DNA of 31,875 bases from a virus. Position 1 is the stretch's first letter; the number at the start of each line of letters is the position of its first letter. Below, piece by piece: positions 1-19,333 of the stretch. The stretch lies in the IMG/VR virus record IMGVR_UViG_3300018428_000101, positions 1-31,875 of that record; one strand, written 5' to 3'. Below the pieces are notes generated by a model. It was given only the letters and a program-made list of their open reading frames with translations, was not told where the DNA came from and did not search any database. The position numbers and the translations under genes are program-made.

Positions 1-948
1 GAAAACAGAGATAGAAAATATGACCCTGATATTTACACATTACGTGCTATATACAATGTAAGTGATACAGATTTTAATTTAAGCCAGTTTGGATTATTTT
101 TACAAAACGATACTTTGTTTATGACTATACATATTAATAGTAGTGTTAAAACATTAGGTAGAAAAATATTAAGTGGCGATGTTATAGAGTTTCCTCATTT
201 ATTAGACGAATATGCGCTAAATGATTACAGTGTAGCATTAAAACGTTTTTATGTAGTAGAAGATGTTAATAGAGCAGCAGAAGGGTTTTCACAAACTTGG
301 TATCCACACTTATATCGTGTAAAATTAAAACAAATATACGACGGACAAGAATTTAGTGACATATTAGATTTACCAGCAGGAGATGATGCTGATAATACAT
401 TACGTGATGTATTAAGTACATTTGAAACTGAAATGAATATCAATAATGCTATAGTTGCCAAAGCAGAAGCTGATGCTGCTAAGTCAGGTTACGATACTTC
501 AAATCTTTATACGTTACAAGTAGATGCCGCTGGCACTCCGGAATTAGTAACAACAGATATTACAACACTTGATGCTTCGCAACAAGGATTATTAGTAGAT
601 CGTATTTCTCAAACTCCTACTCGAGAAGGATATCAAGGATATTTACTAGGTGATAATATTGCTCCAAATGGCGAATCGTTTGGTAGTGGCATAACATTTC
701 CAAGTGTAAATGTTAACGGTGATTATTTTTTACGAACTGATATGATGCCTAATAGATTGTTTAGGTATGATGGTTCACGCTGGCTGAAAGTCGAAGATGG
801 TGTACGAATGACTCTTACAAATACAAATACACGTTCAACACAAAAAACTTCCTTTATTAATAATACTACTACATCAAGTATCGGCGGCGAACAAGTTATT
901 GAAAGACAAAGTTTGTCAAAAGCATTACGAGCAAAGGCAGATAATTAA
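1..948 (+). CDS. 14: Neck protein gp14 (5' partial)
   Basis: The frame is open from the first base, so the true start lies left of the window; 315 residues are visible. T4 gp14 forms part of the neck, closing the portal after DNA packaging and joining head to tail. The visible N-terminal part carries the gp14-like pattern of an 'FGLFLQND' strand followed by 'SGDVIEFPHL' and 'RFYVVEDVNRA', resembling the T4 order 'NFGMQVQDE...GDLIYFP'. The C-terminal part has 'GDYFLRTD' and 'RLFRYDGSRW', an add-on I associate with marine T4-like phages. The visible portion is already longer than T4 gp14 (256 aa). It ends in TAATG, overlapping the gp15 start by one base, so the two are translationally coupled. 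The Met at 121 is an internal Met, because coding similarity continues upstream of it. Confidence 0.75.
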   Translation, partial: ENRDRKYDPDIYTLRAIYNVSDTDFNLSQFGLFLQNDTLFMTIHINSSVKTLGRKILSGDVIEFPHLLDEYALNDYSVALKRFYVVEDVNRAAEGFSQTWYPHLYRVKLKQIYDGQEFSDILDLPAGDDADNTLRDVLSTFETEMNINNAIVAKAEADAAKSGYDTSNLYTLQVDAAGTPELVTTDITTLDASQQGLLVDRISQTPTREGYQGYLLGDNIAPNGESFGSGITFPSVNVNGDYFLRTDMMPNRLFRYDGSRWLKVEDGVRMTLTNTNTRSTQKTSFINNTTTSSIGGEQVIERQSLSKALRAKADN

Positions 949-2438
949 TGCAACATTTTTATGACGGACAAGTTAAAAGATATTTAACACAAATAATTAG
1001 ATTAATTAGTGGGTTCAAATACAAAGATGGCAGCGGTACCGAAAAATCTATTCCAGTAGCTTACGGAGATTTAACAAGGCAAGTTGCTAACATAATTAAA
1101 GATAATAGCGAAAACAAACTTCCTAGTGTGCCAAGAATGGCAGTTTATATAACAGGACTAGAACTTGATAGAGAACGTCTTGCTGATGCTAGTTATGTAG
1201 AAAAGGTAAACATAAGAGAACGAGCATATAACGAAGCCGGAGAAGAATATTTAAACACACAAGGTAAAAATTATACTGTAGAAAGATTAATGCCAACTCC
1301 GTATTTGCTTAGAGTAAACCTTGATATATGGAGTAGTAATACGGATCAAAAATTACAAATTATGGAGCAAATATTAATGATGTTTAATCCTAGTTTGGAA
1401 ATACAAACTACTGATAATTATATTGATTGGACTAGTTTGACTACTGTATATTTAGAACAAATTATGTTTAGTAATAGAACACAGCCTATTGGAGTAGATA
1501 GCGAAATAGACGTAGGCACACTTTCCTTTAGCACTCCAATATTTATATCACCACCAACTAAAGTTAAAAAACTTGGCGTAATTACACAAATTGTAGCAAA
1601 CATTTTTGACGAAACAAAAGGCACTGTTGATTTAGGACAATCTATGCCTACATTAGAAGCGTATGCTGAAACACCTATCCCACTTACTAAAACAACAAGC
1701 ATCAACAGTGATCCTGCTACTAAAACAGATATCACTGCTAACTTAGATACACGAGGTACAATAGCAGCAACATTTAAAAATTATGGATTGTATGTTATTG
1801 GCACTACAGCACAATTAGTAGACAGATCTGTAGTAGGAAAAGTAAACTGGCGTAATGTTATAGAAACTTATCCAGGTACATACACTGCTGGATTAAGTCA
1901 AATTAGATTACAAACTGTAACAGGATCTTACATTGTAGGTTATATAACTATAAATCCATTAGATGAAACAAAACTTACTATTTCTTGGGATAGTGATACA
2001 TTACCAACTGGAGATGTTATTTCAGGACCAGCAAGAAATGCTAATTCTTACACTAGTTTTGACAAAATTGTAGAACCACAAAAATACAATCCTACCGAAG
2101 ATAAAGTAGCAGGTTTTAGAATTTTAGTATTAGATCCTATAAACAATAGTGAAAATGTAGGAGGAAATGTAGGAGATACACCGTACAACTATGTTTATGA
2201 CGGGCCTGACGCTTGGAAAAATAACGACGGCACTGACTTTGTAGCAAACGCTAATGATGTAATAGAATGGGATGGTGCTAGATGGCACACAGTAATTGAT
2301 TCAACAGATAGCACTAACGGTGTTAATCAAAAAAACTTAGCAACAGGTGTAATTTATACATGGACTGGCGAAGAGTGGATTCAAGCATACGAAGGTGAAT
2401 ATTCACATGGAACATGGCTAGTACTACTTGATCCATAA
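948..2438 (+). CDS. 15: Tail completion / sheath stabiliser gp15
   Basis: 496 residues. T4 gp15 caps the tail tube and sheath and connects them to the neck. The N-terminus 'FYDGQVKRYLTQIIRL' matches the gp15 opening of the type 'FYNSSFRRYATLM'. The next part contains 'PVAYGDLTRQ', 'LPSVPRMAVYITGLELDRER' and 'QIMEQILMMFNPSLEIQ', a layout typical of gp15 (T4 has 'QIVEQILPYFQPHF'). The protein is nearly twice the length of T4 gp15 (272 aa). The extra C-terminal half includes 'YNYVYDGPDAWKNNDG', 'VIEWDGARWH' and 'GVIYTWTGEEW', which resemble short beta-structured decoration repeats. The start overlaps the gp14 stop (TAATG). Only 8 bases separate its stop from the Nudix gene. Confidence 0.8.
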   Translation: MQHFYDGQVKRYLTQIIRLISGFKYKDGSGTEKSIPVAYGDLTRQVANIIKDNSENKLPSVPRMAVYITGLELDRERLADASYVEKVNIRERAYNEAGEEYLNTQGKNYTVERLMPTPYLLRVNLDIWSSNTDQKLQIMEQILMMFNPSLEIQTTDNYIDWTSLTTVYLEQIMFSNRTQPIGVDSEIDVGTLSFSTPIFISPPTKVKKLGVITQIVANIFDETKGTVDLGQSMPTLEAYAETPIPLTKTTSINSDPATKTDITANLDTRGTIAATFKNYGLYVIGTTAQLVDRSVVGKVNWRNVIETYPGTYTAGLSQIRLQTVTGSYIVGYITINPLDETKLTISWDSDTLPTGDVISGPARNANSYTSFDKIVEPQKYNPTEDKVAGFRILVLDPINNSENVGGNVGDTPYNYVYDGPDAWKNNDGTDFVANANDVIEWDGARWHTVIDSTDSTNGVNQKNLATGVIYTWTGEEWIQAYEGEYSHGTWLVLLDP

Positions 2439-2446
2439 CTATATAT

Positions 2447-2881
2447 ATGAAGAACATAGTTTGTAGTGGCGCACTTTTTTATACTTTAAAGTCTAGTAGA
2501 TTTTTACTTTTACATAGATGTAAAAGTCGACAAAATAATGTATGGGGATTAGTTGGCGGAACAAATGAAGATTTAGAAACTCCTTGGAAAGGCTTACAAA
2601 GAGAAATTGAAGAAGAAATTGGATTTATGCCTGATGTAAAAAAGGCAATTCCGTTAGAAACATTTATTAGTAATGATGAACATTTTAAATTTCATACATA
2701 TCTTTGTGTTGTAAATGAAGAATTTATACCCCAATTAAACAATGAACACGACGGCTACGCTTGGGTAAGTTTTGGAAAATGGCCTAAGCCATTACACCAA
2801 GGTTTGAATAATACTTTAAAGAGTAAAACAAATCAACAAAAATTACAAACTGTTTTTGAACTTATCAAATTGATTGCGTAG
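2447..2881 (+). CDS. Nudix hydrolase
   Basis: 144 residues. A complete Nudix box G-x5-E-x7-REUxEExGU is visible: G38, E44, R52, E53, E56, E57, G59 and F60, within 'GGTNEDLETPWKGLQ' followed by 'REIEEEIGF'. Nudix enzymes hydrolyse a nucleoside diphosphate linked to another group, for example oxidised dNTPs, NADH, ADP-ribose, nucleotide sugars or RNA caps; the box holds the catalytic metal. The substrate cannot be read from the sequence. The N-terminal strand 'CSGALFYTL' and 'FLLLHR' precede the box as usual. It starts 8 bases after gp15 with no clear Shine-Dalgarno, so it probably relies on coupling. Its last 39 bases overlap the 3' end of the opposite-strand repeat gene. A role in nucleotide-sugar turnover beside the glycosyltransferases is possible but speculative. 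Confidence 0.9.
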   Translation: MKNIVCSGALFYTLKSSRFLLLHRCKSRQNNVWGLVGGTNEDLETPWKGLQREIEEEIGFMPDVKKAIPLETFISNDEHFKFHTYLCVVNEEFIPQLNNEHDGYAWVSFGKWPKPLHQGLNNTLKSKTNQQKLQTVFELIKLIA

Positions 2882-5800
2882 CCATTTGTAATCATTAATT
2901 TTGTAAAGTTTTTCTTGATTGTTAGCAGCGTATTCGCCATATTTTTTGCCGTGATTAGCACCGTTAATCGCAGCATCTCCAAACTGTTTGTCTTTTCCTC
3001 TACTACACCAAGCATTTAATCTAAACTCGGTTTCTTCGTCTAATTGTCCGTCTATTGCTCGTGAACTAAGTTTTACACATTCTCTAAAAGCACTACGCCA
3101 TGTGCTAAACTCGTCTGTGTTAAATTTTGTTATATTACTTATTTGATTAATAGTTTTAAATAGCGGACTTATACTTGTTGTCATATCAGGCTTGTTAGTG
3201 TCCATATTAAGTGTTAAATCTCGTGGCAAAAGTTTGACAGCGCCATATCCGTAAATTAATCCGTTTATTGGATTTTTTGATTTCCAAACATGAACTGTTC
3301 TTTTACTATCTGGATCATATGTAGGTATATAATAATCAAAGTTAAAATTATCTACTATCTCAGCATCGGCATCAATAATCCAAATCATATCAGTCGAACA
3401 CAATTTTGCTGCCTCAATGTGTGCTTGATGAATACCTTCAACACCGTGAATACGTTTTGTTCTTGGAAATTTTTCTAATATGTTTTTATAATTTATATCA
3501 GCGTATTCTTCATCTTTACTTATGTATACAATATCGTAAGGTTCTGGCTGACTTGCTTGAACATCATATTGTTTTTTATTTGCTAAAAATCGCATTTTAA
3601 TTTCGCGTTCAGTAAGTTGTTGATGTTTAGGTACTAAACTAATACCGTCCCAAGCATTGCCATTTTTAAACACGTGATTTGTTTGTCTTTCAAATTGTTG
3701 ATCATGAGTAAAATATAGATCAAATTTGAAATCTTTTGAAACAGTGACTTCTTTTGGTATGATCCATAGCATTTCAGTTTTGCTAGTGTCAATTGCTCTT
3801 AAGTAATCTTTGTAAGTGTTAATAGTAAATCTATCATATACAACAGCACTAGAGGCTACAATATCCCATTCTTTGCGCCTAGCTATGGTTCTGTATTCTA
3901 TTTCTTTTTGTGTTAACGGTGCGTGTTTTGTAAATAAAAATAATCCATTATAGGTTTCTTTTCCATTTGCTTTGTGTTTAAAAGCATGATTGATTGTTCT
4001 GTCATAACTGTTGTGTATATCTATATACATACTCATATCAAAATCTTCATTTATTTTTATGTTAGGAGTTGTTCCCCAAAACATATTAGATTTAGATTCG
4101 TCAAATGCTTTTAAATAATCATTGTAAGTTTGTATGTTAAACACAGGAAATGCTTTTGGTATACTAGCAACAATATCATGTTTCTTTCTGTTAGCATACC
4201 ATCTGTGTTCAACTTCTTGTTGTGTCACAGGAGCATGTGTTGACATAAGTGCTACACCATCCCAGAACTCACCATTTTTAAAAATATGGTTTATCTTTCT
4301 ATCGTATTCATTGTCATGCGTAAAGTATTGATCAAATTTAAAAGAAAGTTCAACTTCTACATCACTAGGAATTGCCCAAAACATTTCAGTTTCAGTTGTA
4401 TCTAATGCTTTCAAATAATCAGAATAATTGTTTACAACAAATCTATCATACTGAACTTTTTTACTACCAATGTCGTTCCAGTGTTTAGCATTTACAATAT
4501 GCCTATATTCTATTTCTTTTTCAGTTACTGGGGCGTGTTTACTATATAAAAATAAACCATTTCTAAAATGTTTGCCATCTACTTCGTGTACGAATGTATG
4601 GTTAATTTTTCGATCAAATTCATTATCATGTGTAAAATAAAGATCAAAGTCAAAAGCCGTAGTATCAATATTCTTTGTATATCCATAAAACAGTTCGGTG
4701 TTACTGTTTTCTAAAGCATCTAAATAATGAGAATAAGTTTCAATAATAAACTCGTCATATACACATTCTTGGCTTGCTACAATATCCCATTCTTTACAAC
4801 TTGCTAAGTGCTTGAATTCAATTTCTTTTTTTGTTACTGGTTTATGTTTACTTAATAAAAATACAGCATTCCTATAAGGAAACCCGTTTACTTGATGAAT
4901 AAAACTATGATTTTCATTTCTGTCATATTCGTTATTCCAATCAAATGTTAAACTAAAATCGTATACGTCTGTATTACAATTTCTACTAATTGCCCAAAAT
5001 AATTCTGTACTTGACGTATCCATTGCTTGTAAATATTCATCATACGAGTCTACATGGAAAATATCATACGATTTATTCTTACTAGCAACTTTATAATGTT
5101 CTTTAGCGTTTACTAAAAATCTATGTTTAATTTCTTTTTCAGTAACTGGAGCATGTTTACTAAACAAAAAATAACCATTGTATGCACATGAATCTTCGCC
5201 TTGATTTATAAAAGCATGATTGCATTCTCTATCAAATATATTGTCGTGACTAAAATATGTATCAAATTTGAAATCGTGTGCTGTTTCTAAATGACTACAT
5301 GTTCCCCAAAACATTTCAGTTTTAGTATTAGCAAAAGCATACAGATAATCAGCATATGTATCAATTGTAAAACTAGAATAAGTTACAGGTTTTGATCCAA
5401 CAATGTTGTGTTGTTTACAAAACATAAAATGTCTATATTCTATTTCTTTTTGTAACACTGGTTTATGTTTTGAACATAAGAATAAACCGTTGTATAATTG
5501 CCTTCCATCAACATCATGTATAAATGCATGATTTTCCTTTCTGTTGTATGTGTCTGTGTGGTTAAAAACAAAATCAAAATCAAATGCCAAAGTGTTTATA
5601 TTTCTGCTACTCATCCAAAACATTTCTGTTCTAGACATTTCCATAGCTTGTAAATATTCGTCATACGAATCGATTAAAAAATAATCATAAGGTGCTGGCA
5701 CACTGAATACTGTGTTATGTTCTTTTCTTACTACAGGATGTCTATGTAAAATTTCATTTTCTGTAAGGGTATGATTTTTTGGTATAAGAAACACACCATT

Positions 5801-7324
5801 AAAACAAATTTTATCATCGCAGCTATGTACAAATGCGTGTACTTGATTCCTATCGATAATATTATGATGACTAATATAAAATTCATCTATACATTTTTGA
5901 TATGTTCTTAGTTGAGGACTAGACATCCAAAACATATCAGTTGTAGATTTTTCTTTGGCATATAAGTAGTCTTCGTAAGTATCAATTTCAAAAAAATCAA
6001 AACCTTTAGGAGTACTATAAACGACATCCCATTCTTTTTTCTTTGTATAAAACCTATGTTCTACTTCTTTTTTTGTAAGTTTAGAGCTGGTGTTATATAA
6101 AACAACACCGTCATATGATTCTTTATTTTTGAAAACATGAGTAATTTTTCTGTCATATAAATTATGATGTGAAAAATATAAATCTAAATCTTTTACTAAA
6201 TTTACATCATCTGGTACGCCCCAAAACATATCAGTTGTTGTATTATCTAAGGCACGTTTGTAATCAGAATAAGAATTTATTGTAAAAGTATCAAACTTTT
6301 TTGGACGGCTTGCTACCACCTCGTGTTCTTTTTTTACAGCTAAAAATCTATTATTAAATTCTTTTTCAGTAATTTTACAATGTTTACTCAACAGCATTAC
6401 ACCATCGTAATGTTCACCGTTTAGATAAACATGATTTATTTGTCTATCATATTGATTATGATGACTTATGTACAAATTTAAATCAAAAGAATCTTCCACA
6501 ATAATATCTTGTGGTATCCACCATACTAAGTCGTCATCTAATGTTTCTATAGTATCGCAATAATGTTGATAGTCTTTAAAACTCATTTGTTTGTAAGGTA
6601 AAGGTTTACTAGCAAGTATGCTTACGTCTTTCTTTTCAGCGTAGAATCTATGAGATAGTTCTTTTTTACTTGGAGTATAGTTTTTAGGAGCAAGAATTAT
6701 ACCATCTTTAGTTTTTGCTTTTCCGTTACTAAAAACATGAACATATTTTTGGCTCCAGTCATCAGGCATATAGGAAAATTTAAAAAACTCACTTACTTGT
6801 ACATCATTAGGGACAAGCCAAAACATATCTGTTTCGCTTTGTTTTTGAGCATCTTTATAGTTTTTTACACACTTGGCACTAGCAAACTTTTCAGATAATT
6901 TTTTAAATTCTTGATCTGATTTATTTCCTTGATAGAAAATATTAAAACTTTCTTTTCCACAAAGCACATCATACTTGGCACAAATATGTTTTTGCTCAAT
7001 ACGATATTGTTTGTTTAAGTTTTTCGTAGGAACAAGTTTAACTTTGTCCCAGCTTAATATTCTTTTACTTCTCTTGTACACATAAGGAAAACAATGGATG
7101 CCGTGTTCCTTAGGCTTAAAATGCCATGGAAATGTTCTTAGTGTTTCTAAGTCTTTATCTACAATCCAAACATAATCATAATCTTGATATTGATCTATAA
7201 TACTATAGTCCATTGTATCATTAGTATAATGTTTTGGATAACCATTTAAAAAATGATTTTTCAAAACATCCTGTCCATTGTAAACAGTGCGTCCATATCT
7301 ATTAAACTTGTCTACAGCTCTCAT
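2843..7324 (-). CDS. Giant repetitive glycosyltransferase-like protein
   Basis: 1493 residues. The C-terminal unit (about 1255-1493) looks like a GT-A-type glycosyltransferase or a close relative. It has a 'YDIVYIS' strand, 'GIHQAHIEAAKLC', then 'TDMIWIIDADAE' with D1318, D1320 and E1322 in the place of a metal/nucleotide-sugar D-x-D, and 'RTVHVWKSKNPINGLIYGYG'. The N-terminal unit (1-160) has 'YVWIVDKDLE' with D56 and D58. Between them are eleven tandem modules of 98-104 residues beginning near residues 165, 264, 364, 462, 566, 669, 773, 876, 979, 1079 and 1183. Each has the pattern T-[DE]-M-F-W, 'HDN..DR..NH.F', 'YNG..L.SKH', 'EIE.R', 'KEWDIVAS', 'YD.F.I..Y.DYL.A', and none keeps D-x-D. The ATG overlaps the preceding gene's stop (ATGA). 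No signal peptide or membrane segment was seen. The catalytic role is inferred; a sugar-binding scaffold is an alternative. Confidence 0.6.
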   Translation of the reverse strand: MRAVDKFNRYGRTVYNGQDVLKNHFLNGYPKHYTNDTMDYSIIDQYQDYDYVWIVDKDLETLRTFPWHFKPKEHGIHCFPYVYKRSKRILSWDKVKLVPTKNLNKQYRIEQKHICAKYDVLCGKESFNIFYQGNKSDQEFKKLSEKFASAKCVKNYKDAQKQSETDMFWLVPNDVQVSEFFKFSYMPDDWSQKYVHVFSNGKAKTKDGIILAPKNYTPSKKELSHRFYAEKKDVSILASKPLPYKQMSFKDYQHYCDTIETLDDDLVWWIPQDIIVEDSFDLNLYISHHNQYDRQINHVYLNGEHYDGVMLLSKHCKITEKEFNNRFLAVKKEHEVVASRPKKFDTFTINSYSDYKRALDNTTTDMFWGVPDDVNLVKDLDLYFSHHNLYDRKITHVFKNKESYDGVVLYNTSSKLTKKEVEHRFYTKKKEWDVVYSTPKGFDFFEIDTYEDYLYAKEKSTTDMFWMSSPQLRTYQKCIDEFYISHHNIIDRNQVHAFVHSCDDKICFNGVFLIPKNHTLTENEILHRHPVVRKEHNTVFSVPAPYDYFLIDSYDEYLQAMEMSRTEMFWMSSRNINTLAFDFDFVFNHTDTYNRKENHAFIHDVDGRQLYNGLFLCSKHKPVLQKEIEYRHFMFCKQHNIVGSKPVTYSSFTIDTYADYLYAFANTKTEMFWGTCSHLETAHDFKFDTYFSHDNIFDRECNHAFINQGEDSCAYNGYFLFSKHAPVTEKEIKHRFLVNAKEHYKVASKNKSYDIFHVDSYDEYLQAMDTSSTELFWAISRNCNTDVYDFSLTFDWNNEYDRNENHSFIHQVNGFPYRNAVFLLSKHKPVTKKEIEFKHLASCKEWDIVASQECVYDEFIIETYSHYLDALENSNTELFYGYTKNIDTTAFDFDLYFTHDNEFDRKINHTFVHEVDGKHFRNGLFLYSKHAPVTEKEIEYRHIVNAKHWNDIGSKKVQYDRFVVNNYSDYLKALDTTETEMFWAIPSDVEVELSFKFDQYFTHDNEYDRKINHIFKNGEFWDGVALMSTHAPVTQQEVEHRWYANRKKHDIVASIPKAFPVFNIQTYNDYLKAFDESKSNMFWGTTPNIKINEDFDMSMYIDIHNSYDRTINHAFKHKANGKETYNGLFLFTKHAPLTQKEIEYRTIARRKEWDIVASSAVVYDRFTINTYKDYLRAIDTSKTEMLWIIPKEVTVSKDFKFDLYFTHDQQFERQTNHVFKNGNAWDGISLVPKHQQLTEREIKMRFLANKKQYDVQASQPEPYDIVYISKDEEYADINYKNILEKFPRTKRIHGVEGIHQAHIEAAKLCSTDMIWIIDADAEIVDNFNFDYYIPTYDPDSKRTVHVWKSKNPINGLIYGYGAVKLLPRDLTLNMDTNKPDMTTSISPLFKTINQISNITKFNTDEFSTWRSAFRECVKLSSRAIDGQLDEETEFRLNAWCSRGKDKQFGDAAINGANHGKKYGEYAANNQEKLYKINDYKWLRNQFDKFKNSL
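3395..6832 (-). repeat. Eleven tandem ~100-aa modules in the giant protein
   Basis: Eleven coding repeats of 98-104 codons (the last, before the C-terminal unit, about 128). They are recognised in protein by T-[DE]-M-F-W at the start and 'DYL.A' at the end. At DNA level, words such as ccaaaacatttcag recur, but whole units have diverged, so this is an old amplification and not a recent slippage array. Units 4 to 8 and 10 are longer (103-104 aa) because of an insertion of the 'HEVDG' or 'HDVDG' kind in the middle; units 2, 3 and 9 lack it and read 'FKNG', 'YLNG' or similar. The order of long and short units is not strictly alternating. Confidence 0.9.
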
Positions 7325-7896
7325 AATTTAAAACTCTTTGTTCCATAATGGGCAATTTTTTTACTTAAATCCGCATCAATAAAAATATCAAATCCGGCAT
7401 CGTTAGCATTCTTGCAGAAATATATATCTTCTCCCATAAGTGTTTTAGTTTCTTTATGTTCTAAATATTGATGCCAAGGTTTTTCTAAGTATTCGTAAAC
7501 TTTTGTATTTACTAACATACATCCCATGCCGACTGCCCAAACTTTGTGTAAGCCTCCTATTTCATCTAACCTTTCTGAAAGATTATTAGGATCTGTAAAT
7601 GCTACACTTTGATAAGGTGGCATTCGTGTGCTGTAGCTGGCAGCTACAATTTCTTTGTTATGAGATAATAATATGTTTGCTGTATTTGCTGGCAAGTGCA
7701 TATCACTATCTAACCACAGTATATGTGTACAACCTTTTTCTAAAGATTCGCTTATCAATTGATTACGTTGTTCAGGTATCACAGTACCTAAATTCATTAG
7801 TATTTCGCAATCAATAGTTTTGGCAATTTTTGCCAATGATAACGCAAACCCTGCGTGAACTGTATCACGAGCAGGCACACATATTGATAATTTCAT
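7321..7896 (-). CDS. GT-A glycosyltransferase (GT2-like)
   Basis: 191 residues. The N-terminus 'KLSICVPARDTVHAGFA' is the usual first strand of a GT-A fold. 'QRNQLISESLEKGCTHILWL' leads into 'DSD' (63-65), the expected metal and nucleotide-sugar ligand. 'VWAVGMGCMLVN' (119-130), 'MGEDIYFCKNANDAGF' (154-169) with the acidic ED pair, and 'IAHYGT' with H183 fit the acceptor and catalytic half of family-2-like enzymes. It should move a sugar from a nucleotide donor to an unknown acceptor. It is a compact single domain with no membrane segment. The gene sits between the 127-aa gene (TAATG, 1-base overlap) and the giant repeat gene (ATGA, 4-base overlap), so the three are almost certainly one translationally coupled unit. 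Confidence 0.8.
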   Translation of the reverse strand: MKLSICVPARDTVHAGFALSLAKIAKTIDCEILMNLGTVIPEQRNQLISESLEKGCTHILWLDSDMHLPANTANILLSHNKEIVAASYSTRMPPYQSVAFTDPNNLSERLDEIGGLHKVWAVGMGCMLVNTKVYEYLEKPWHQYLEHKETKTLMGEDIYFCKNANDAGFDIFIDADLSKKIAHYGTKSFKL

Positions 7897-8279
7897 TAGG
7901 TGATTGTTTCTGAAATAGTATCTGTGTTAAGTGTTGCTTCTGCTGCTACTGTCTGATCATTTAGTTGTCTAGCTTTACTTACAGCAATAGTTACTGCATC
8001 AGTAAAATCTTCCTCACTTAAAGAACTCATCAGAACCATGTTTTCAGGTTGTACTTTTCCTAGTGTAATTAAATCAGCAGAAGCTAAATGCGCAATAACA
8101 TTTATCCAATGATGACGTTCGTCAGCCTCTGGAATATCCATGCTATCGATTGCTTCACAAACTTCTTTATAAAGTTCTGATTCTAAACCTAATTTTTCCG
8201 CTAGGTCTTTTTTTCTTTGTTTTGTATATGCTTGTGCTAAGTCAATATTAATAACTTCGTATAAACTTTTCATTTCCAT
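7896..8279 (-). CDS. Unknown 127-aa protein in the glycosyltransferase operon
   Basis: Not recognised. The chosen start is the ATG at 8279, giving 127 residues. A longer frame reaches a TTG at 8303, but that would overlap the 54-aa gene by 20 bases, and the likely ribosome site AAGGA lies about 10 bases before the 8279 ATG, inside the end of that gene. The protein is mostly helical and acidic: 'SLYEVINIDLAQAYTKQ', 'RKKDLAEKLGL', 'VCEAIDSMDIPEADERHHW', then 'LSEEDFTDAVTIAVSKARQL'. The last 20 residues are Thr/Ala-rich and probably disordered. No catalytic motif, signal peptide or membrane segment is seen. Its stop overlaps the glycosyltransferase start (TAATG). Its place between a small structural-type protein and the transferases would suit an adaptor or chaperone, which is a guess. 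Confidence 0.7.
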   Translation of the reverse strand: MEMKSLYEVINIDLAQAYTKQRKKDLAEKLGLESELYKEVCEAIDSMDIPEADERHHWINVIAHLASADLITLGKVQPENMVLMSSLSEEDFTDAVTIAVSKARQLNDQTVAAEATLNTDTISETIT

Positions 8280-8283
8280 TATA

Positions 8284-8448
8284 TTATGTTCCTTGTCCGC
8301 CAAATGTATCGCTCATTTGAATTGTAGTTCCAGCTGAAATACTCAAAAAAGCACCCAGCCCAGCCATAGTAATTGGAGTACCAGAACCACCAAAGTAGTT
8401 TCTAATCTCTGACATTGTAATTGCTGATCCGGTTGCTGGTAACGCCAT
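8284..8448 (-). CDS. 54-aa mini structural protein (fibre-motif)
   Basis: A short gene read from ATG at 8448 to TAA at 8284, with ribosome site AGGAAAG seven or so bases upstream. The product is 'MALPATGSAITMSEIRNYFG', then 'GSGTPITMAGLGAF' and 'GTTIQMSDTFGGQGT'. The pattern LP-[AS]-[ST]-G-x-I-[ST]-[ML]-S-[ED]-I followed by a second and third 'I-x-M-[AS]' repeat is one I associate with the short N-terminal segment of virion fibre or appendage proteins in T4-like marine phages; here it is a free-standing gene. It is Gly/Thr/Ser-rich with no membrane segment. It is the first gene of the glycosyltransferase operon, so it may be a virion peptide or a modification target, which is inference only. 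Confidence 0.7.
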   Translation of the reverse strand: MALPATGSAITMSEIRNYFGGSGTPITMAGLGAFLSISAGTTIQMSDTFGGQGT

Positions 8449-8530: not shown

Positions 8531-11500
8531 TTATTTATCGAGTAATTTTTTTACCATTTCTTTCAGCTCAGCAATCTCTGCTGCTTGTGCTTCTAGTTTA
8601 GCATCTTGCTCTTTGATTGCTTCAATAAACAATGGAGCAAGTTTTTCATACTTAACAGTAATATAATCTTCACCTGATTTACTCTTATATTCTTTTTCTT
8701 CGCTATCCCAATATTGATCAAAAGGAGCCTTAGCAATCGCTTGTGGTAAAACTTTTTCTACTTCTTGAGCAATAACACCAGCATCATTAATTTGGTTATC
8801 AGGATAGAAACCTAAATCATTGACTTCAGCTTTCCAATCAAAGTTTACACCAGTTAACGACTTTATTTTAGTTAAAGCATTTTCAATTGGTACAATATTT
8901 TCTTTCAATCTTTTATCTGATGAATAGGCTGTAACTTCGCCTACAGCATTCATATTGCGACCAAATGTAACATCGTTATTTGTCAAGTTCCAAATAGCTG
9001 GCCATTGACTGTTTACTTGTGCCCAAGATGTTGAATCGTCTCCGCCACGTAAGATATAAAACAAGTCACTGTTGTTATGTAACATAGCAACATTGTGATT
9101 AGTATCACGGAAATATAGTGTTGGTGAAGTATTCCTAATATAAATGTTTTGGCTTGCTGTTGTAGTGCTACGCAAGAAACCTGAACTATCAATACCATCA
9201 AGTGTATCAGCATCACTAGCACTAACACCAGTTAGGTTACTACCGTCACCTGTAAAACTATTAGCAGTAACATTACCTGTAATACTAATAGAACCACCTC
9301 CACTAAGTGTACCTGAAAAACTATCATTAGTATCGCTGCGTAAGAAACTACCTGAAGATACACCATCAAGTGTATCAGCATTAAGTCCGCTGCCAGGACC
9401 ATCATTACCTTCGTGCCATACTTTGTAGTTGGTGCCACCAACATTATAAAGTAGACCATTTACCCCACTGTTGACATCAAGATATTCATCAGTTCTGTCA
9501 TTGTAGATACGCATTGCTCCACCATTTACATACTGAATATAACCTCTGCGTGTTCCTGCTTGATAGAAACTTATGTAAGGTGATCCAGTTGAACTTTGTG
9601 TTGCTAACCTAAGTTGTTCATTTGAATTCCTATTACCGGTAAGAAGTCCAGTATACGTATCATCAGCATTACTGCGTAAGAATGCTGAGCTATCAATACC
9701 ATCTAAGGTTGTAGCATCTACGCTTGTAAGTCCACTACCGTTACCAGTAAATGTATTTGTACCAATATTAACATCACCAAATCCGCTTGTTATACTACCA
9801 GCATTTAGTGCTCCAGTACCAGTTACGTTACTGTAAGTTCCGCTAAGTCTAGCATTAGGAACAGTTCCACTGCCTAAGTTACTTGCGTTAAGTGCTGTTA
9901 ATCCACTACCGCCACCGTAGAAAGTACCATTTGAATATACATCTTTAGCAACACCAATGCCGCCATCAACAATTAGTGCACCAGTAGTGTTACTAGTTGA
10001 CTGTGTTGTGTTATCGATATTGACAATAGTATTTGAATTAAAGTTCATTGAAGTAGCATTATCTGCTACAATAGTATCAACTGCTATGCTACCTACATTA
10101 GTAATGTTATTATCATTGAAACTTGTAGCACCTAATGATATAGCACCTGTAGCAGTTAATGAGTTATTTCCGATATTAATATTGCCAAAGCCGCTACTAA
10201 TAGCACCAGCATCTAATGTGCCTACTCCAGTAATATCTAATTGGTGTTGTACAACACTGCTAGAACTGATTCTACCATCTGGCACTGTACCAGAGGACAA
10301 ATTATCAGCATTTAGTGCTGTTAAGTTTGTACCTACGCCACTATATCCATTTGTGCCACTAAATGTAAATGCTGTTGTTGAAACAGTTACATTTACTCCA
10401 GGTATACTCAAAGAATTGTTTGTAGCATTACCAATTTGCATAAAGTTACTAGTGCTGTTAGAAGCTGGTTCAATGTCATAACCAAGGAATATGTTATTAT
10501 TACCTGTGGTTAATGTTGTAGCACTTAGGGCACCAAGTACAATGTTGTTATTACCTGTAACAATTTCTAAGGCCTGTAACCCTAATGCTGTGTTATTGCT
10601 ACCAGCAGTACTGTTTGCCATTGTACTCTTACCAACACTAGTATTACCGTCTCCAACACTAGTACGTTGTTCTTGACTGTCTGAACCAATTGCTGTATTG
10701 TTGTTTACACTAGTAGCAGCACTCAATGACGCAAACCCAACTGCAGTATTACCATCACCGGATAAGGCACCTGTCATTGATGTTCCACCGATACCTGTAT
10801 TATGTTCAGCAGCAGCAGTTAAGTTTTCGCCATGTCCAAACATTAAGTTTGTAGCGCCACTATTTCCACCACGTCCAGCATTGAAACCATGTACAGTAAT
10901 ATCACTTGTAAATGTTTTTCCTGCTTGGCTTGTTGGTAATCTAGCATCATTTACTGTACCACTTGACAAGTTAGTTGCATTCAGTGTTGTTAAGCCACTG
11001 CCATTACCAGTTAGTGTTCCGCCAACATGTAAGTTCTTAGCAATACCTACACCACCGTCGACTATCATGGCACCGCTTGTAGTGCTTGTTGCTTGTGTTA
11101 CATTATCTACGTTTACAACAGTTGAACTTGCGAAGTTCATACTTGAACCATTGTCGCCGCTAATAGTATCTAGTGCTAAACTTCCTACATTTGTAATGTT
11201 ATTATCGTTAAAAGATGTAGCGCCTAATGATATAGAACCTGTTGCTGTAAGGGCACTTGTTCCAATATTAATACTACCAAAACCGCTAGTAATACTACCG
11301 CCATCAAGAGCGCCGGTATTTTGTATGCTAGTATTGATTACTGTAGAACCAAGTGTTGTACTAGTAAGAACACTTGTATTGTTTACACGATATTCTTTGC
11401 CACTTATTACATTAACATTCTCGCTAAAGTCCCAGCTATCGTTAGCATTTGACCATGTAATAGTATGATCGGTTGCGCCTTTTAATGTAATACCACCGCC

Positions 11501-14500
11501 GTCTGCTGTCACATCAGTTGGTGTATCTACAGTGCCTAATTCAATGTTTTTATCATCAACTTGTAATGTAGTTGAATTAAGTGTAGTTGTAGTACCGTTT
11601 ACAGTTAAGTCTCCTGTAATATCAACATCACCTGCAATACTAGTGTCACCGTTTGTTCCGTTAATTACAAATTTATTTAAGTCAGTACCAAATCTAAACG
11701 ATCCCGCTTGATTAATTTGTAGTCTTGCTACACCTGCTGTAAAGAAATCTAAATCGTCATTATCAGACCCTGATGTCGTTTCAGCAACAATTTTTGTATC
11801 TTGATCAACATCAATAACACCGCCTAAACCGCTCCAGTTACTTCCGTCATATCCTTCAAATGTGCTATCTGTAGTGTTATAACGTATTTGTCCTTGAGCA
11901 TCTGTAGGACGCTGTGCTGTAGTACCAACAGGTAACTTAATTGCCGAAGTATCACTAAAGTTAGTATAACCAGTAAAGGTTGTGACTCCATCAGTGTCTA
12001 TAGTCATTCTTGTAGTTGCTGTTTGTACAACTTCGCCTGTTGTTCCTGTTTCACCAGTTTTTACAATAAAGTCTCCGCCTGTAGCATTACCTGTACCTAG
12101 GCCAGGTTGTATTGTTATATTACCACCTGCTACGTCTGTTCCAATTCCGCCTTCGCCTTTAATAATTGCTGGAAGAGGAGATGTTCCAAATTCTCCGCCG
12201 CCAATCACAACGTTTTGGTTTTTAAGAACAATAGTATTTTCTTTTGATATTGTACCAACTTGTGTAACAGCCGGATCAGCATTTACGTTTTGATTTGTTC
12301 TAATAGTAAATGATGTTGCGTTAGTAGTAGCACCAATAACTGGCCATTGTCCGTCTAAGTTAGTAATTGTACTTTGATCAATAATTACTGTATCACCAAC
12401 CCTCACGCCTAAAGTTAGAGGAGTATAATTAAATGAGATAGTTGTGCCTGTTAAAACACTACCTGTTAAATCATCACTTAAAAATACTTCGTTTTCGGTA
12501 ATACCAGTAACCGTTGTGTTAGCAGGAATACTACCGCTACCAGTAACTGTCATACCAAATGCAATTGAAGTAGTGTCGCTAAAAATTAAAACCTTTTCAC
12601 CGTTAGCACTAGCATCACTTGTACTTACTTGAATATCTGCTAAATTTACAACAACATCTTGAGTGTTAGTTGCCTCATATGTTTCTACAAAAGTGCTAAT
12701 ATTTCTACTTTCACTATTTTTACCAATTTTAACATTTTCAGCATCGCCGCCAATTTCAATTGTAGTCACATTGTCATTATAGATTTGACCTGTTGCTGTA
12801 CTACTTGAACTTAATCTAGCAGATCCAACATCTAGACCTTCAGCTAGATCGAGTGCTGTACCCCATTCAGGTACTGTTCCATTTGACTTTAAGAATGTAT
12901 TTACTCGACCAATATTTAATGTGTTTAAACTTGCTGCTGATTGAGCGTAGATGATATCACCAACAGCATACGTGGTTATATTTGTACCGCCACGTACAAC
13001 AGGCACAGGACTAGTTAAGTTTGCTGGGTTTAAAAAGTAAGCACTATCTAAACCATCTAATGTTCCAGCATCTACTATTCCATCCTTAATAAACACCTCG
13101 CCACTACCGTTTGAATTTACATCAAATTGTGTTTGTAGGAATCTACTTGTTCCAAGTGTTGAGAATGTTCCAAGTGGATCGTAGTCAGCGTTAGCTATAC
13201 CAATGTTTACTGGATCACCGTAGAATTCAGCATTTGAACTTGATCCTGTTAGTGTAATTGGGTTATCTGTTGTAGATGCTTTTTTGAGACTTTGAACAAC
13301 AGTATCATATCTACTATCACCAAATAATACTGTATCACTATTTGGTACTCCGCTGCCTCCAAGTCTACTTGGTGAAATTGTACCTGAAATAATATTTTCA
13401 GCATCAATGTTTGTAGCAGCAAGTGTATTCCAGTTTGATTTAATTCTGCTAGAAGTGTTAACAATTTCAGTAACTCTAACATTGCTCGGTGTAATTCTCG
13501 CACTACCAACACCTGCTGTACCAATATCTTTTCTGTTTGTAACAAGTCCATTAATACTGCTTAACGCATCTGAACGTAAAGCGTGTAATGTAAATGAGTT
13601 TGTTGTTACTGAACCTACAAAGAATCTTGCGCCATCTGTAATTTCTTTACCGTCAATATTAGGCAATGCATTAGAAGTTGATCCATCTGTTAAAGTATTA
13701 ATTCTAATAGCATCACCAGTAGTTAAACCATTATTTTGAACAAGGAGACTATCGTCTGTTAGGTTAACAGTGAATCTACTTAAATTATGGTTGTTGTTTA
13801 ACGGTGTTGTTAAAAATTCAATTTGATTAATCAAGCTATAATCGTCGTAAATTTCAATGGTATTGTCATCAATCTTTTTAGCGTAATATACTCTACCATT
13901 TAACATACCACCAATAGCAACGTTACCAATTGTGTCATATGTAACTGGATCACCATTTTCCAATCCATGATTAGTAATAGTAATTCTATCATCTGTATAG
14001 TTTACACTACCGCCACCTGCTATGGTACCAGCTAAAAAGTTTAAACTAAGAACGTTATCTAAACCAATATCAAACGCATTTACAACAGCGTCAACATCTT
14101 CAACAAAGTCAATACTTGATGTCGAAGCAACAAATAATTCTCCGCCTAAAATATTAACATAAGCACGTTTTTCAATTGCCGATACTTCAATTTGGAAATT
14201 ACTGCCGGCGCCACCTATGTCAGATGCATTACAACTAACAATATCAGCTACTTCATAACCAGTTCCGCCTCTACGTAAGTCAACATCACTTACTGCTCCT
14301 GCTGTAACTGTAATATCTGCTCTAGCACCAGAACCGGTCCCACTTACATTTGTAAGAGCAACATTTTCATAAATTTGATTACCTTGTGCTGGCAAATAAC
14401 CACTGCCGCCTGTTATATTAGCATTATCAACGTTAACAAGTACACCAAGACGTAGTTCTGTTACAGAACCTTGCGCACCACCATCAGCACTTGTTACAAC

Positions 14501-15103
14501 ACTTCTTACACTACCTGTTCTTGATGTTGTGCTAACATCTATACCTATGTTCTCAATTGTAAACGATGTACCAGATGGGATACTTATCACTTCTCCAAAC
14601 ACATTAAAGGTGTTGTCTTCTGTACATACAACTTCTACTTGGTTACCTACATTAAGGCCATGTGATCCATTTGTTACAATAGTTTGTATGTTACTTGCTC
14701 TAGCAACACTTGATAAATCTACAATGGTAAAGTTATAATCTTCAGTTGGATCAAGTAACAAATACTGACTAGTATTAGAACTTTTTAGGAAGAAGTTATC
14801 AATAATAGCACTTGATGCTCCTTTAGATGTTGGGTGTACACCTGAGTCTACGCCGTTTACAAACAAGTTTAGATTGTTTGTTACATCCCATGGATCACCA
14901 ACACTATCGTCAGTTTCGTCCCAAGCACCGTCGATAGTTGCTACAAGAATGTTTCCACTAACTGAGAAATTTCCTTTAGCATAACCTGTAGCACCAGTAA
15001 CACCTGGTTGTGTAATTGTATCTCCGTCTGTTGCGGTAATATTACCACTAAGTGTAAGTTCAACTTGTTCATAGTTTTCAGTAGCAATGTCTCCAGCTGA
15101 CAA
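8531..15103 (-). CDS. Giant fibre frame with YadA-like repeats and S74 chaperone end
   Basis: 2190 residues if begun at the TTG at 15103, the first accepted start codon after the stop. No in-frame ATG exists until hundreds of residues later and no Shine-Dalgarno precedes the TTG. The frame actually opens right after the TAA of the upstream gene, so this is probably the C-terminal part of that protein. Contents in order: beta-rich Gly/Thr/Asn segments; four 'TLDG.DS..FLR' type repeats (near 684, 1800, 1911, 1968); 'YDGSNWSGLGG' and 'DVDQDTKI'; a ~120-residue duplicated block (about 1268-1390 and 1632-1753); NTA.G repeats of the YadA-head type (about 1410-1545); and a C-terminal Peptidase_S74 intramolecular chaperone (from about 2055, 'SSDKRLKENI', 'GVIAQEVEKVLPQA'). 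S74 domains trimerise fibres and usually cut themselves off at the Ser. It ends in a coiled coil 'AAEIAELKEMVKKL'. It likely forms a trimeric host-binding fibre. Confidence 0.75.
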   Translation of the reverse strand: MSAGDIATENYEQVELTLSGNITATDGDTITQPGVTGATGYAKGNFSVSGNILVATIDGAWDETDDSVGDPWDVTNNLNLFVNGVDSGVHPTSKGASSAIIDNFFLKSSNTSQYLLLDPTEDYNFTIVDLSSVARASNIQTIVTNGSHGLNVGNQVEVVCTEDNTFNVFGEVISIPSGTSFTIENIGIDVSTTSRTGSVRSVVTSADGGAQGSVTELRLGVLVNVDNANITGGSGYLPAQGNQIYENVALTNVSGTGSGARADITVTAGAVSDVDLRRGGTGYEVADIVSCNASDIGGAGSNFQIEVSAIEKRAYVNILGGELFVASTSSIDFVEDVDAVVNAFDIGLDNVLSLNFLAGTIAGGGSVNYTDDRITITNHGLENGDPVTYDTIGNVAIGGMLNGRVYYAKKIDDNTIEIYDDYSLINQIEFLTTPLNNNHNLSRFTVNLTDDSLLVQNNGLTTGDAIRINTLTDGSTSNALPNIDGKEITDGARFFVGSVTTNSFTLHALRSDALSSINGLVTNRKDIGTAGVGSARITPSNVRVTEIVNTSSRIKSNWNTLAATNIDAENIISGTISPSRLGGSGVPNSDTVLFGDSRYDTVVQSLKKASTTDNPITLTGSSSNAEFYGDPVNIGIANADYDPLGTFSTLGTSRFLQTQFDVNSNGSGEVFIKDGIVDAGTLDGLDSAYFLNPANLTSPVPVVRGGTNITTYAVGDIIYAQSAASLNTLNIGRVNTFLKSNGTVPEWGTALDLAEGLDVGSARLSSSSTATGQIYNDNVTTIEIGGDAENVKIGKNSESRNISTFVETYEATNTQDVVVNLADIQVSTSDASANGEKVLIFSDTTSIAFGMTVTGSGSIPANTTVTGITENEVFLSDDLTGSVLTGTTISFNYTPLTLGVRVGDTVIIDQSTITNLDGQWPVIGATTNATSFTIRTNQNVNADPAVTQVGTISKENTIVLKNQNVVIGGGEFGTSPLPAIIKGEGGIGTDVAGGNITIQPGLGTGNATGGDFIVKTGETGTTGEVVQTATTRMTIDTDGVTTFTGYTNFSDTSAIKLPVGTTAQRPTDAQGQIRYNTTDSTFEGYDGSNWSGLGGVIDVDQDTKIVAETTSGSDNDDLDFFTAGVARLQINQAGSFRFGTDLNKFVINGTNGDTSIAGDVDITGDLTVNGTTTTLNSTTLQVDDKNIELGTVDTPTDVTADGGGITLKGATDHTITWSNANDSWDFSENVNVISGKEYRVNNTSVLTSTTLGSTVINTSIQNTGALDGGSITSGFGSINIGTSALTATGSISLGATSFNDNNITNVGSLALDTISGDNGSSMNFASSTVVNVDNVTQATSTTSGAMIVDGGVGIAKNLHVGGTLTGNGSGLTTLNATNLSSGTVNDARLPTSQAGKTFTSDITVHGFNAGRGGNSGATNLMFGHGENLTAAAEHNTGIGGTSMTGALSGDGNTAVGFASLSAATSVNNNTAIGSDSQEQRTSVGDGNTSVGKSTMANSTAGSNNTALGLQALEIVTGNNNIVLGALSATTLTTGNNNIFLGYDIEPASNSTSNFMQIGNATNNSLSIPGVNVTVSTTAFTFSGTNGYSGVGTNLTALNADNLSSGTVPDGRISSSSVVQHQLDITGVGTLDAGAISSGFGNINIGNNSLTATGAISLGATSFNDNNITNVGSIAVDTIVADNATSMNFNSNTIVNIDNTTQSTSNTTGALIVDGGIGVAKDVYSNGTFYGGGSGLTALNASNLGSGTVPNARLSGTYSNVTGTGALNAGSITSGFGDVNIGTNTFTGNGSGLTSVDATTLDGIDSSAFLRSNADDTYTGLLTGNRNSNEQLRLATQSSTGSPYISFYQAGTRRGYIQYVNGGAMRIYNDRTDEYLDVNSGVNGLLYNVGGTNYKVWHEGNDGPGSGLNADTLDGVSSGSFLRSDTNDSFSGTLSGGGSISITGNVTANSFTGDGSNLTGVSASDADTLDGIDSSGFLRSTTTASQNIYIRNTSPTLYFRDTNHNVAMLHNNSDLFYILRGGDDSTSWAQVNSQWPAIWNLTNNDVTFGRNMNAVGEVTAYSSDKRLKENIVPIENALTKIKSLTGVNFDWKAEVNDLGFYPDNQINDAGVIAQEVEKVLPQAIAKAPFDQYWDSEEKEYKSKSGEDYITVKYEKLAPLFIEAIKEQDAKLEAQAAEIAELKEMVKKLLDK
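8532..8539 (-). promoter_or_regulatory. Late-promoter-like octamer GATAAATA
   Basis: GATAAATA on the - strand, close to the T4 late promoter core TATAAATA. It overlaps the last codons and the stop of the S74 fibre gene. It lies about 84 bases before the 54-aa gene. The octamer is short and the region AT-rich, so chance is possible. The same motif occurs in the 19214-19322 gap. Confidence 0.4.
9845..11300 (-). repeat. Duplicated ~120-aa block in the S74 fibre
   Basis: Two copies, about 10935-11300 and 9845-10209. Each begins 'SGFG.INIG', continues 'LTATG.ISLGATSFNDNNIT', 'NVGS.A.DTI', 'ST..GA.IVDGG.G.AK', 'G.GSGLT.LNA.NL.SGTV', and ends '.ARL'. The intervening segment holds the YadA-like repeats. 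A third, shorter 'SGFGDVNIG...GNGSGLT' piece lies near 9710-9780. The copies are clearly homologous but diverged, so they come from domain shuffling within the fibre and not from a recent duplication. Confidence 0.85.
10480..10870 (-). repeat. YadA-head-like NTA.G repeats
   Basis: Within the S74 fibre frame, successive short repeats read 'NTGIGGTSM', 'NTAVGFASL', 'NTAIGSDS', 'NTSVGKSTM', 'NTALGLQAL', 'NIVLGALSA', 'NIFLGYDI', spaced about 15 residues apart. This is the pattern of the left-handed beta-roll head of trimeric autotransporter adhesins such as YadA. In a phage fibre it would be a trimeric binding or spacer segment. The role is inferred from family resemblance. Confidence 0.75.
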
Positions 15104-15151
15104 ATCAACAGCTGGAATATCATCTACTTGTAAAAGCCTTGATAGATAACC

Positions 15152-18100
15152 TTATGTGTTTGTGTTTGTAAACTGTCTAGTAGCAGGAATAAGTTCGCCA
15201 TTCAACTGACCGTTTGTGTTCAACTGAACAATAGCGCCTGGAACAGCCGCAGTAGACACAGTTTTGTCAACAAAACCACCTAGCCTGTTACCAATAAACG
15301 ATCTAATAGCTAACTGCGTAACCAATCGTGCATCACTTGGACCGCCAATTTCGTCATCACCTAAGTTAACATCAGTTGAAATTTCTTCAATAGCAACATC
15401 ACTCAAACTTAATTTCAACGCATCAAGTTCGTCCACCTGAACTTTGTTTCTAAATGTAATGTTACCAGTTCTGTTAAACGCTGTAATAAAGTCACCAACT
15501 TTAAAGTCACCAAGTTCGTTTGTACCTGATGAATAAACACGACCTGGTAATTCTTCATATTGTTCAAACTCAGATCTTGTGTTACCACCGTTTTGTGGTA
15601 GTGCGTTATAGTCTGTTCCTGAACCTGCGTATTCCCAAGTGTGTGCGGACGAGTTAACAATACTTGGTCTGTGGAACCAAATTTGCCTCTCGGGTAAGTT
15701 TCCTGTGTTTGTGATACTGCTACTTCCGTCTGTTGCTGTAATACTAAACGTTGCTGTACCTAACCCAAGTTTTGTTGATACTTCATTTATACTAATATTT
15801 GTATTAGGACTACCTGCGTGATCAGCACTAATAATGCTTGTAGCATCAAATTGTATTCTAAGAACACTTGATCCAACAGCAACTTCTTCGATACTTACTA
15901 CTAGTCTACGTTCTGCTGGTTCCCAACTAGAAACAAAGGCACTATTATTGTTTGCTCCTGTTGTACCTGTAATAGCTCTTCCTGGAACAAATTCATAACT
16001 TTCAGCACCAGACTCTAGTATCAATGTTTGATACGTAGTATGTGAACTTAAAATTTCTTCAACAAAGAATTCAATAATATTTGTTCTAAAAATATGATTG
16101 CCAGAGTTAGTTATGTTTTCAAATAGTTGTACTGGAAATTCCAAACTATCATCAAATGTTAAACTAAATGTATCAGGATCTAATACGTTAGCATAATAAG
16201 TCTGTTCGTCATCTAATCCACCAATTGGAATATTTCCATTAGCATCATAGATAAGTTTTTCACCATTTGTAAATCCATGCCCTGTAATTGTAAAAATACT
16301 TGTACCTTTATCAACATCAGCTGTTGAACTAAAAGTTGTTTCAGTTGGAGTTGGAATAAAGTCGTTTGTTACATCTCCTTCACTACTTACTTCTTGTGGT
16401 GCTGGAATTTCTTCTGGTGATCTAATTGCTTCACTTACAATGTTAAATCTACTTTGAACAAAATCTTCAATATCCGTTGTTATGCCAGTTTTGCCTGTAA
16501 TAACTGCGTTTGTATAGATAGCAGATTGTTGTATAGCAGCAATTGTTTGTAGTTCTTGTCCGCTAATACTACTACGTGAAGAGTCTGCTAAGTTAGCAGC
16601 AAAGTAACTTAATCCAGCACTACGAGAATATCTGTTACCTGTATCCCATGTATCTTTAGCAACAGCTTCAACAATTAATTTAGAATCTCTTAAACATTTT
16701 GCTTGATCATAATCAAAATTATACCATTTTGCTGCGTCAATACTTTCGTTAATATACTGTGTTACTCTTTGAGCAATGTTAATTGCGCCTATTTCATCTA
16801 ATCTTATAAAATCATCTTGTAAAGTTTGACTTACACCAAGAGCAGTCAAATCAGGGTTGATCGGGTCTGCTAATGTTCCAGCATTGGTTTGAATATGTTG
16901 AATAATTTCATCTATTCTAGCTTTAGCAAAATCTGCTTCTGTTTGTGTAGCAGCAGTACCGCTTGTATCTTGTGTAATGATGTTTCCTGAAGACACTGTA
17001 ACTGCTTCTTCTTTAACAATCTTTTCAACAATCTCTTTCATTCTGCCCCAAGCTGCGACAGTTTCTTCTTTTTGTCCTGTACCGTATACAGCAGTACCGT
17101 CAACAAAATACTGTTGAGCTGCTATCAAACTTTCTAAGTTACCGCCAGTGGAAAGATCATATGTTATAGCATCTACAATTTTACTAGCATCGTTTTCACA
17201 TGCTGCTACATTATATACAAATCCTGTAGAGAAAGGAGCAATATTTCCAGCAACTTGAGCATTAATCCAAGCTGTTAATTCTTTTTGTATAAATGTTCTG
17301 TTTGCTAACAATTGTGCTACAGCATTACCACTATTGGTGTTGATAGCAGTAGGCAATACTCTAGCATCAACTAATTCGTCTCCTGCTATGCTCGCACTAC
17401 TACCAGCACCAAGAATTTCTATGATTTCATCCCAAAGTGCATCTGTTCTTGATTCAAACGTTGAATCTTGTACAATACCCGCTGTAAAAGTTTTAGCATT
17501 GCCATAAGCATCAATATGTTGATCTTTTTGCGCCGCAAATAATGAAGCATCAAACCTACCATTAAAATATGTTAATGCTGCGTTGATAGTTCTAGCGTTA
17601 CTATTTAAAGCAGCATCATATCTAATAGATTCTATAAGTAACCTAGTGTCTCTTCTACATTTATCTTCGTTATATTCAAAGCCAGCATAAATGCTTGGAG
17701 AACCAGCTGCGTTAGAAATTTGTAAGTTAATCCAATCAACTGTATCTTGGGCAATAGCATCTCTTTGATTTAAAATTAAAGTATACGCTCTTTTATAACC
17801 AGGATCTCTGTATCTTAAAATAAATTCTTCAACAGGCGCATCACGATTTACACCAACAATAGTAATTGTTTGTTTACCTTCACTAGCACCAGTAGATACA
17901 ACATGTGCTCTGTCAAATTCAAATGCTTTTGGTGAATAACCACTAGATCTCAACGCATACAATCCAAAGTTTGTAGCGGAGTTAGTAATGGAACAATAAC
18001 CACCTGACTGTGTGTAAACACCGTTTAGTAGGAAAATTTGGAAACACGAAACGATCTGTGCGTAAGCATCGTTAAGTAGACGCCAGCCTGTACCACCAAA

Positions 18101-19300: not shown

Positions 19301-19333
19301 AGAAAAAGTAGTAGCTTTTTATTTAAAAGCTAC
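19301..19333 (-). terminator. Intrinsic terminator of the 2617-aa gene
   Basis: A perfect 9-bp stem (gtagctttt / aaaagctac) with a 5-base loop is followed on the - strand by TACTTTTTCT. The upstream arm includes the final codons of the 2617-aa gene, whose TAA stop lies partly in the loop. The GC content of the stem is low, so termination may be partial. Confidence 0.65.

Follow-up and report, generated by a model that had tools for sequence, protein, structure and literature searches.

A phage glycosyltransferase joined to an array of degenerate GT-A half-domains, a putative scaffold for glycan addition

What use might a bacterial virus have for a protein in which eleven degenerate copies of part of an enzyme stand in front of a single unit predicted to be active? 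The question is raised by a 1493-amino acid protein of an uncultured large phage (IMG/VR record IMGVR_UViG_3300018428_000101), of which positions 1 to 31,875 were analysed; this whole stretch of 31,875 nucleotides is referred to as the window. An initial annotation, made from the letters of the sequence, described eleven degenerate glycosyltransferase-like modules between two units with D-x-D motifs. The ORF at 2843-7324 exists, with the correction that it lies on the minus strand, and the motifs quoted for the modules, together with D1318-A-D1320-A-E1322 and D56-K-D58, are all correct. The features of the locus are given below; the modules were delimited with an HMM, and residue numbers are those of the array protein.

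948-2438, plus strand, T4 gp15-like tail sheath stabiliser; conserved flank
2447-2881, plus strand, NUDIX hydrolase, convergent with the array gene and overlapping its 3' end; conserved flank
2843-7324, minus strand, array glycosyltransferase gene, 1493 aa (N-unit, 11 modules and C-terminal GT-A unit)
2846-3538, minus strand, predicted C-terminal GT-A glycosyltransferase unit (residues 1263-1493)
3365-3373, minus strand, DxD metal motif D1318-A-D1320, invariant in 53 of 53 relatives
3566-3865, minus strand, module 11 (1154-1253), part of the AF2 model
3866-4177, minus strand, module 10 (1050-1153), part of the AF2 model
4178-4474, minus strand, module 9 (951-1049)
4478-4786, minus strand, module 8 (847-949), modelled singly with flanks, pLDDT 93.2
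4787-5092, minus strand, module 7 (745-846)
5096-5407, minus strand, module 6 (640-743)
5408-5716, minus strand, module 5 (537-639)
5717-6028, minus strand, module 4 (433-536)
6029-6319, minus strand, module 3 (336-432)
6323-6619, minus strand, module 2 (236-334)
6626-6916, minus strand, module 1 (137-233), most divergent of the eleven
6917-7324, minus strand, N-unit (1-136), weakly GT-A-like, optional across the family
7321-7896, minus strand, 191-aa glycosyltransferase (phrog_1574/phrog_12406, weak Anp1) with a WLDSD motif; its 3' end, with the stop codon, shares 4 nt with the start of the array gene
7896-8303, minus strand, 135-aa protein (phrog_1409), third member of the conserved block
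8531-15103, minus strand, tail fibre protein of 2190 aa, immediately upstream of the conserved block
15152-19213, minus strand, 1353-aa tail fibre protein
19323-27176, minus strand, 2617-aa tail fibre or virion structural protein

The N-unit is followed by eleven modules of 97-104 residues (137-1253) and a C-unit of 231 residues (1263-1493). An HMM built from these eleven modules scores them at 104-149 bits and also picks up the C-unit at 7e-8, but the N-unit only at 0.41; pairwise identity among the modules is 18-52%. An artefact of assembly is excluded, since the same gene is found on other IMG/VR contigs, full-length in two (L001 and L004), and each module has its counterpart in the relatives.

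On the evidence of sequence and model, the C-unit is a GT-A glycosyltransferase with predicted activity. Its D-[AG]-D motif, which follows the central strand, is invariant in an alignment of 53 diverse relatives. An almost invariant F-R-E (1413-1415), in the helix where the catalytic base (xED) would be expected, is an uncertain candidate for that base; a C-terminal His was not located. The AF2 model of modules 10-11 plus the C-unit (pLDDT 92.7, pTM 0.80) contains a Rossmann-like GT-A core. All 50 PDB matches listed for this model are glycosyltransferases (best E 2.7e-6), with K4 chondroitin polymerase, ppGalNAc transferases, WrtF and SunS at the top. The C-unit shares its fold and DxD motif with these GT2/GT27-type enzymes, but differs from them in falling below the Pfam GT2 cut-offs and in being preceded, across the family, by up to 16 degenerate half-domains. 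K4 chondroitin polymerase has two complete GT-A domains and no array. Weak Pfam GT2 matches (E-values 7e-5 to 0.06 at best) occur in 18 of the 53 relatives; none reaches the curated cut-off for PF00535 or PF13641, and the C-unit of the window has no match. PDB sequence profiles gave noise only. The family of about 230 residues to which the C-unit belongs is large, relatives being encoded on at least 421 stretches in IMG/VR and 97 in bacterial genome records. The homologs on bacterial chromosomes are single-unit enzymes; they lie on contigs of Streptomyces, Micromonospora, Nocardia, Roseibium, Ruegeria and others (L109, L116, L141, L159, L162 and others). For the homologs tested, NCBIfam gave no match, and Pfam none over threshold for the part that corresponds to the catalytic unit.

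The modules are best described as degenerate GT-A half-domains which have probably lost the metal site and kept the core fold, a view supported by profiles as well as by models. When a profile built from 111 modules is aligned to that of the C-unit family, the match covers the central part of the C-unit (hhalign, 97%, E 8e-11). Furthermore, class-A C-units reach 15-31 bits with a module HMM from which all C-units had been left out, compared with 13.5 for the best of ca. 10,600 shuffled sequences, so the likeness is not due to chance. Class-B units stay below this mark, for which reason the modules are most likely descended from a class-A enzyme. The first aspartate of the DxD is lost in 111 of 111 modules, being replaced by S, P, T or another non-acidic residue. 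The initial annotation had called the modules non-acidic at this motif; that holds for the first position (0/111 acidic) and fails for the third, where N (59), D (34) and E (6 of 111) are found. In the model of a single module (pLDDT 93.2) the order of strands and helices equals that of the corresponding part of the enzyme in the model of modules 10-11 plus C-unit; what the module lacks is the strand and helix with which the enzyme fold begins, and the helices at its C-terminus. Its best ca. 43 PDB matches (Foldseek) are GT-A-type folds, individually weak (best E 0.09, TMq ca. 0.4). The proposal that the array arose by copying a GT-A unit, with loss of the metal site and retention of the fold, is thus supported by the profile alignment, the element order and these weak matches; in the structural searches suggested for modules and C-unit, the best matches listed are GT-A-type folds for the module and glycosyltransferases for the model with the C-unit. 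The modules could be assigned to no meaningful family in PHROG, Pfam or NCBIfam. Their composition is acidic and aromatic (net charge -29, pI 6.1, 21% F/W/Y/H), and the conserved polar residues of the module alignment (H75, R71, E103 and R107) could have a role in packing between modules. No transmembrane-like stretch was seen in the array protein.

The N-unit is a more distant relative of the modules (profile-profile comparison, 75%, E 2.6e-5). Its D56-K-D58 had been taken as the sign of a second active end. At this site N-units carry DKN, DKD, DSN, DDS, DKS, DKR, EEG, NKN, HED and others, many arrays have no N-unit, and some have no catalytic C-unit. The idea of two active ends does not survive this comparison; with its metal motif not conserved, the N-unit was dropped as a candidate for a further active site.

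Relatives were collected from IMG/VR with the C-unit, the N-unit and a subset of modules, the profile of all modules being too diverse. Across hundreds of related phage genes the number of modules standing before the C-unit in one reading frame is 0-11 or 16. The initial annotation had named only single-unit relatives, in marine T4-like phages; in IMG/VR, however, arrays are common, with all module numbers between 0 and 11 represented and also 16. A tree of 47 C-units holds thirteen module-count classes and requires at least 25 changes, and array length differs widely between close relatives. Positional orthology of the modules runs inwards from both ends, the expansion lying in the middle. 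In the pair L035 and L037 the two genes, 90-96% identical elsewhere, differ by an exact indel of 312 nt, i.e. one 104-codon module in frame. Length changes by whole modules, in frame, for which recombination between modules would be the simplest route. The modules are under purifying selection (dN/dS 0.08-0.13), the values for the catalytic unit being broadly similar (0.01-0.17).

In six window-type jumbo-phage contigs, two of them of 236 and 256 kb, the syntenic gene ends after the N-unit and seven modules and has no catalytic domain. Two distinct array-only versions give a dN/dS of 0.063 at a dS of 0.39. A gene-by-gene check was made for one of the six, L229, in which the tail fibre, a 132-aa protein, the small glycosyltransferase, NUDIX and gp15 are all present. 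In a clade of three contigs (L049, L074 and L089) the array is spread over two overlapping ORFs split at the same place, by programmed frameshift or coupled re-initiation, both of which are possible; L210, with an in-frame stop within the array, was left out as evidence for split genes. Since the array-only orthologues are constrained and a split-array clade exists, it is very probable that the array has a use of its own even when not joined to the enzyme.

Two side observations belong here. The split sites, at L049:5237-5268, L074:5689-5720 and L089:4747-4793, are out-of-frame overlaps on three divergent contigs. L229 lies on the same 256-kb contig as L294, so that an array lacking the catalytic unit and a distant 6-module array possessing it are found together; the second of these sits among modification enzymes.

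Among 42 distinct window-type loci with upstream sequence, a small glycosyltransferase of the 191-aa type lies directly upstream of the array in every one; the two ORFs overlap by 4-17 nt in 39, and all 42 enzymes carry a WLD[ST]D motif. When loci are counted with repeats of some contigs included, the 135-aa gene lies upstream of the glycosyltransferase in 92/92, NUDIX is present in 82/85 and gp15 in 85/85. The link between the array and the 191-aa enzyme consists in this adjacency (42/42) and overlap (39/42). The suggestion that the array serves as a capture scaffold for this enzyme has gained support from the adjacency and from the constrained array-only orthologues, the partnership being read from gene order. 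Tail-fibre genes lie upstream of the block both in the window and in L229. A tail fibre of L229 (L229:3-7736) was compared with the two fibres encoded at 8531-19213 of the window: for most of its length it is 55% identical to the one of 2190 aa, and a stretch of 235 aa is 79% identical to the one of 1353 aa, in a pattern that reads as mosaic exchange between fibre genes. In other array families the neighbours are a class-B glycosyltransferase and several radical SAM/SPASM genes in a row (Pfam). The 198-aa protein upstream of the class-B genes shows no likeness to the 191-aa enzyme. On contigs with array glycosyltransferases, 21 radical SAM (PF04055) matches were recorded in L062 (IMGVR_UViG_3300047378_000694, 170 kb) and 14 in L078 (IMGVR_UViG_3300022922_000794, 47 kb); some of the radical SAM genes near related arrays are of the SPASM type.

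As a tentative explanation of the whole, close to evenly balanced in our estimation, we propose a GT-A enzyme with an array of pseudo-enzymes as acceptor-holding scaffold, whose target would be a tail fibre or another surface glycan. Its parts deserve separate judgement. We are highly confident that the array is a constrained series of GT-A pseudo-enzymes; its putative role as scaffold stands about even; the tail fibre, as putative substrate, is possible rather than probable. According to sequence and model, the modules arose as copies of the N-terminal portion of an enzyme of this family, in which the first aspartate of the metal site and the helices at the C-terminus were lost. The array would then have gained a function of its own, its length shifting by whole modules in frame, most simply via recombination between them. 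As a multivalent scaffold its aromatic- and histidine-rich modules may grip a long repetitive acceptor, to which sugars would be added by the attached GT-A unit, the co-encoded 191-aa glycosyltransferase, or both, while the array holds it. With 21% F/W/Y/H and a net negative charge, a carbohydrate or protein acceptor fits better than a nucleic acid. Because the array gene lies behind tail-fibre genes, the acceptor would most likely be the phage's own tail fibre (virion glycosylation), the main alternative being a host surface glycan. We infer this link between enzyme and fibre from gene order, and the radical SAM/SPASM surroundings of the array in related loci could point to another substrate.

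The host-glycan alternative supposes that the glycosyltransferases modify LPS or O-antigen during infection, e.g. to block superinfection, while the array grips the growing polysaccharide. Pelagimyophage host-recognition clusters are reported to contain radical SAM cassettes together with tail fibres and glycosyltransferases, and for the glycosyltransferases of these clusters such a role is preferred by the authors (PMC7029224). Related array loci also sit among modification enzymes, including radical SAM/SPASM genes (Pfam) and, judged by eye only, amidinotransferase-, SGNH- and methyltransferase-like genes. But the array protein has neither membrane anchor nor transmembrane-like stretch, and the window-type loci lie within the virion structural block, behind tail fibres; we regard this alternative as unlikely though of some weight. 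Less probable in our view is a role in which the array, rather than binding acceptors, assists either the 191-aa glycosyltransferase or the tail fibre as chaperone or assembly factor. COSMC, a GT-A pseudo-enzyme which acts as chaperone or scaffold for T-synthase (PMC7185993), offers a precedent; array and 191-aa enzyme are always co-encoded in window-type loci, and the array-only orthologues are constrained. A fixed client, however, would not need the wide variation in length between close relatives, and relatives with 0-2 modules exist, though outside the window-type operon. Gene order behind the tail fibres, a tandem architecture of variable length and aromatic-rich modules would also suit a virion component, i.e. 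an extended, fibre-like adhesin with modules binding host glycans. We consider this quite improbable in the face of the invariant DxD and the conserved catalytic core of the C-unit, of homologous single-unit enzymes on bacterial chromosomes, and of the further glycosyltransferase or radical SAM genes that accompany it.

The remaining readings carry little weight. DNA-modifying phage glycosyltransferases are cited in PMC12619734, and an enzyme of this kind, its array tracking along the DNA, might glycosylate modified phage DNA; the modules are acidic (net -29, pI 6.1) and the gene lies among structural, not replication, genes. Mainly on module charge and gene context this was rejected as very improbable. 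The earlier reading of a processive ruler with two active ends draws on the DxD-like D-K-D of the window N-unit, but that motif is not conserved among N-units, many arrays lack the N-unit and some the C-unit, and this two-ended form of the ruler is extremely improbable. Lastly, frequent gain and loss of modules might be expected of a neutral, decaying repeat expansion, to which we give next to no credence: a dN/dS of 0.06-0.13 and long open frames in many contigs speak against it, and neutral decay of the array is refuted by the selection data.

How much of this is new? That glycosyltransferases occur in phage host-recognition clusters is already known. The novelty is that degenerate half-GT-A modules, as many as sixteen of them, form an array, which is absent from the open-licence literature, Pfam, PHROGs and NCBIfam searched; no arrays of degenerate glycosyltransferase domains were found in that literature. 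Four queries, namely the complete array protein, its C-unit, a relative with two modules and a class-B unit, found nothing by tblastn against INPHARED (ca. 50,000 phage genome records), the C-unit query being negative even at E 10; a control query matched 1805 records. A structure search of BFVD gave matches over two modules and the glycosyltransferase for A0A6J5LK21 (E 1e-29) and A0A6J5L5L5 (E 1e-27), uncharacterized proteins of uncultured Caudovirales phages which are only 16-17% identical to the array protein and probably share its architecture. Pseudo-enzymes usually take the form of a single domain beside an active partner. One such is COSMC (C1GALT1C1), the pseudo-glycosyltransferase chaperone of T-synthase; like the modules it is a GT-A copy without the metal motif, and it supports an active glycosyltransferase (PMC7185993). 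Unlike the array it is a single full-size domain, eukaryotic and on a separate chain, whereas the phage array consists of tandem half-domains usually fused to an enzyme predicted to be active. We know of no pseudo-enzyme arrays in the glycosylation systems of mycobacteriophages or PBCV-1. These systems, namely mycobacteriophage virion glycosylation and the PBCV-1 glycosyltransferase on the major capsid protein (title of PDB 2p72), are likewise virus-encoded and near to, or acting on, virion proteins.

With some reserve, we suggest that there may be a widespread and hitherto undescribed phage scaffold class in which 1 to 16 catalytically dead GT-A half-domains form a grip of adjustable length for glycans or glycoproteins, evolving as whole modules are gained and lost and working with glycosyltransferases in cis or in trans, the catalytic domain having been wholly replaced in some jumbo phages. 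A glycosyltransferase has here been turned into a tandem array of freely changing length, and the array can outlive the enzyme. The relatives, with 0-11 and 16 modules, form a natural series of lengths in which repeated pseudo-active sites could be tested as a device for processivity or acceptor length, and the array singles out many contigs from uncultured aquatic phages as likely makers of unusual surface glycans. The family suggests that dead copies of an enzyme became a scaffold of adjustable length for a machinery that adds glycans.
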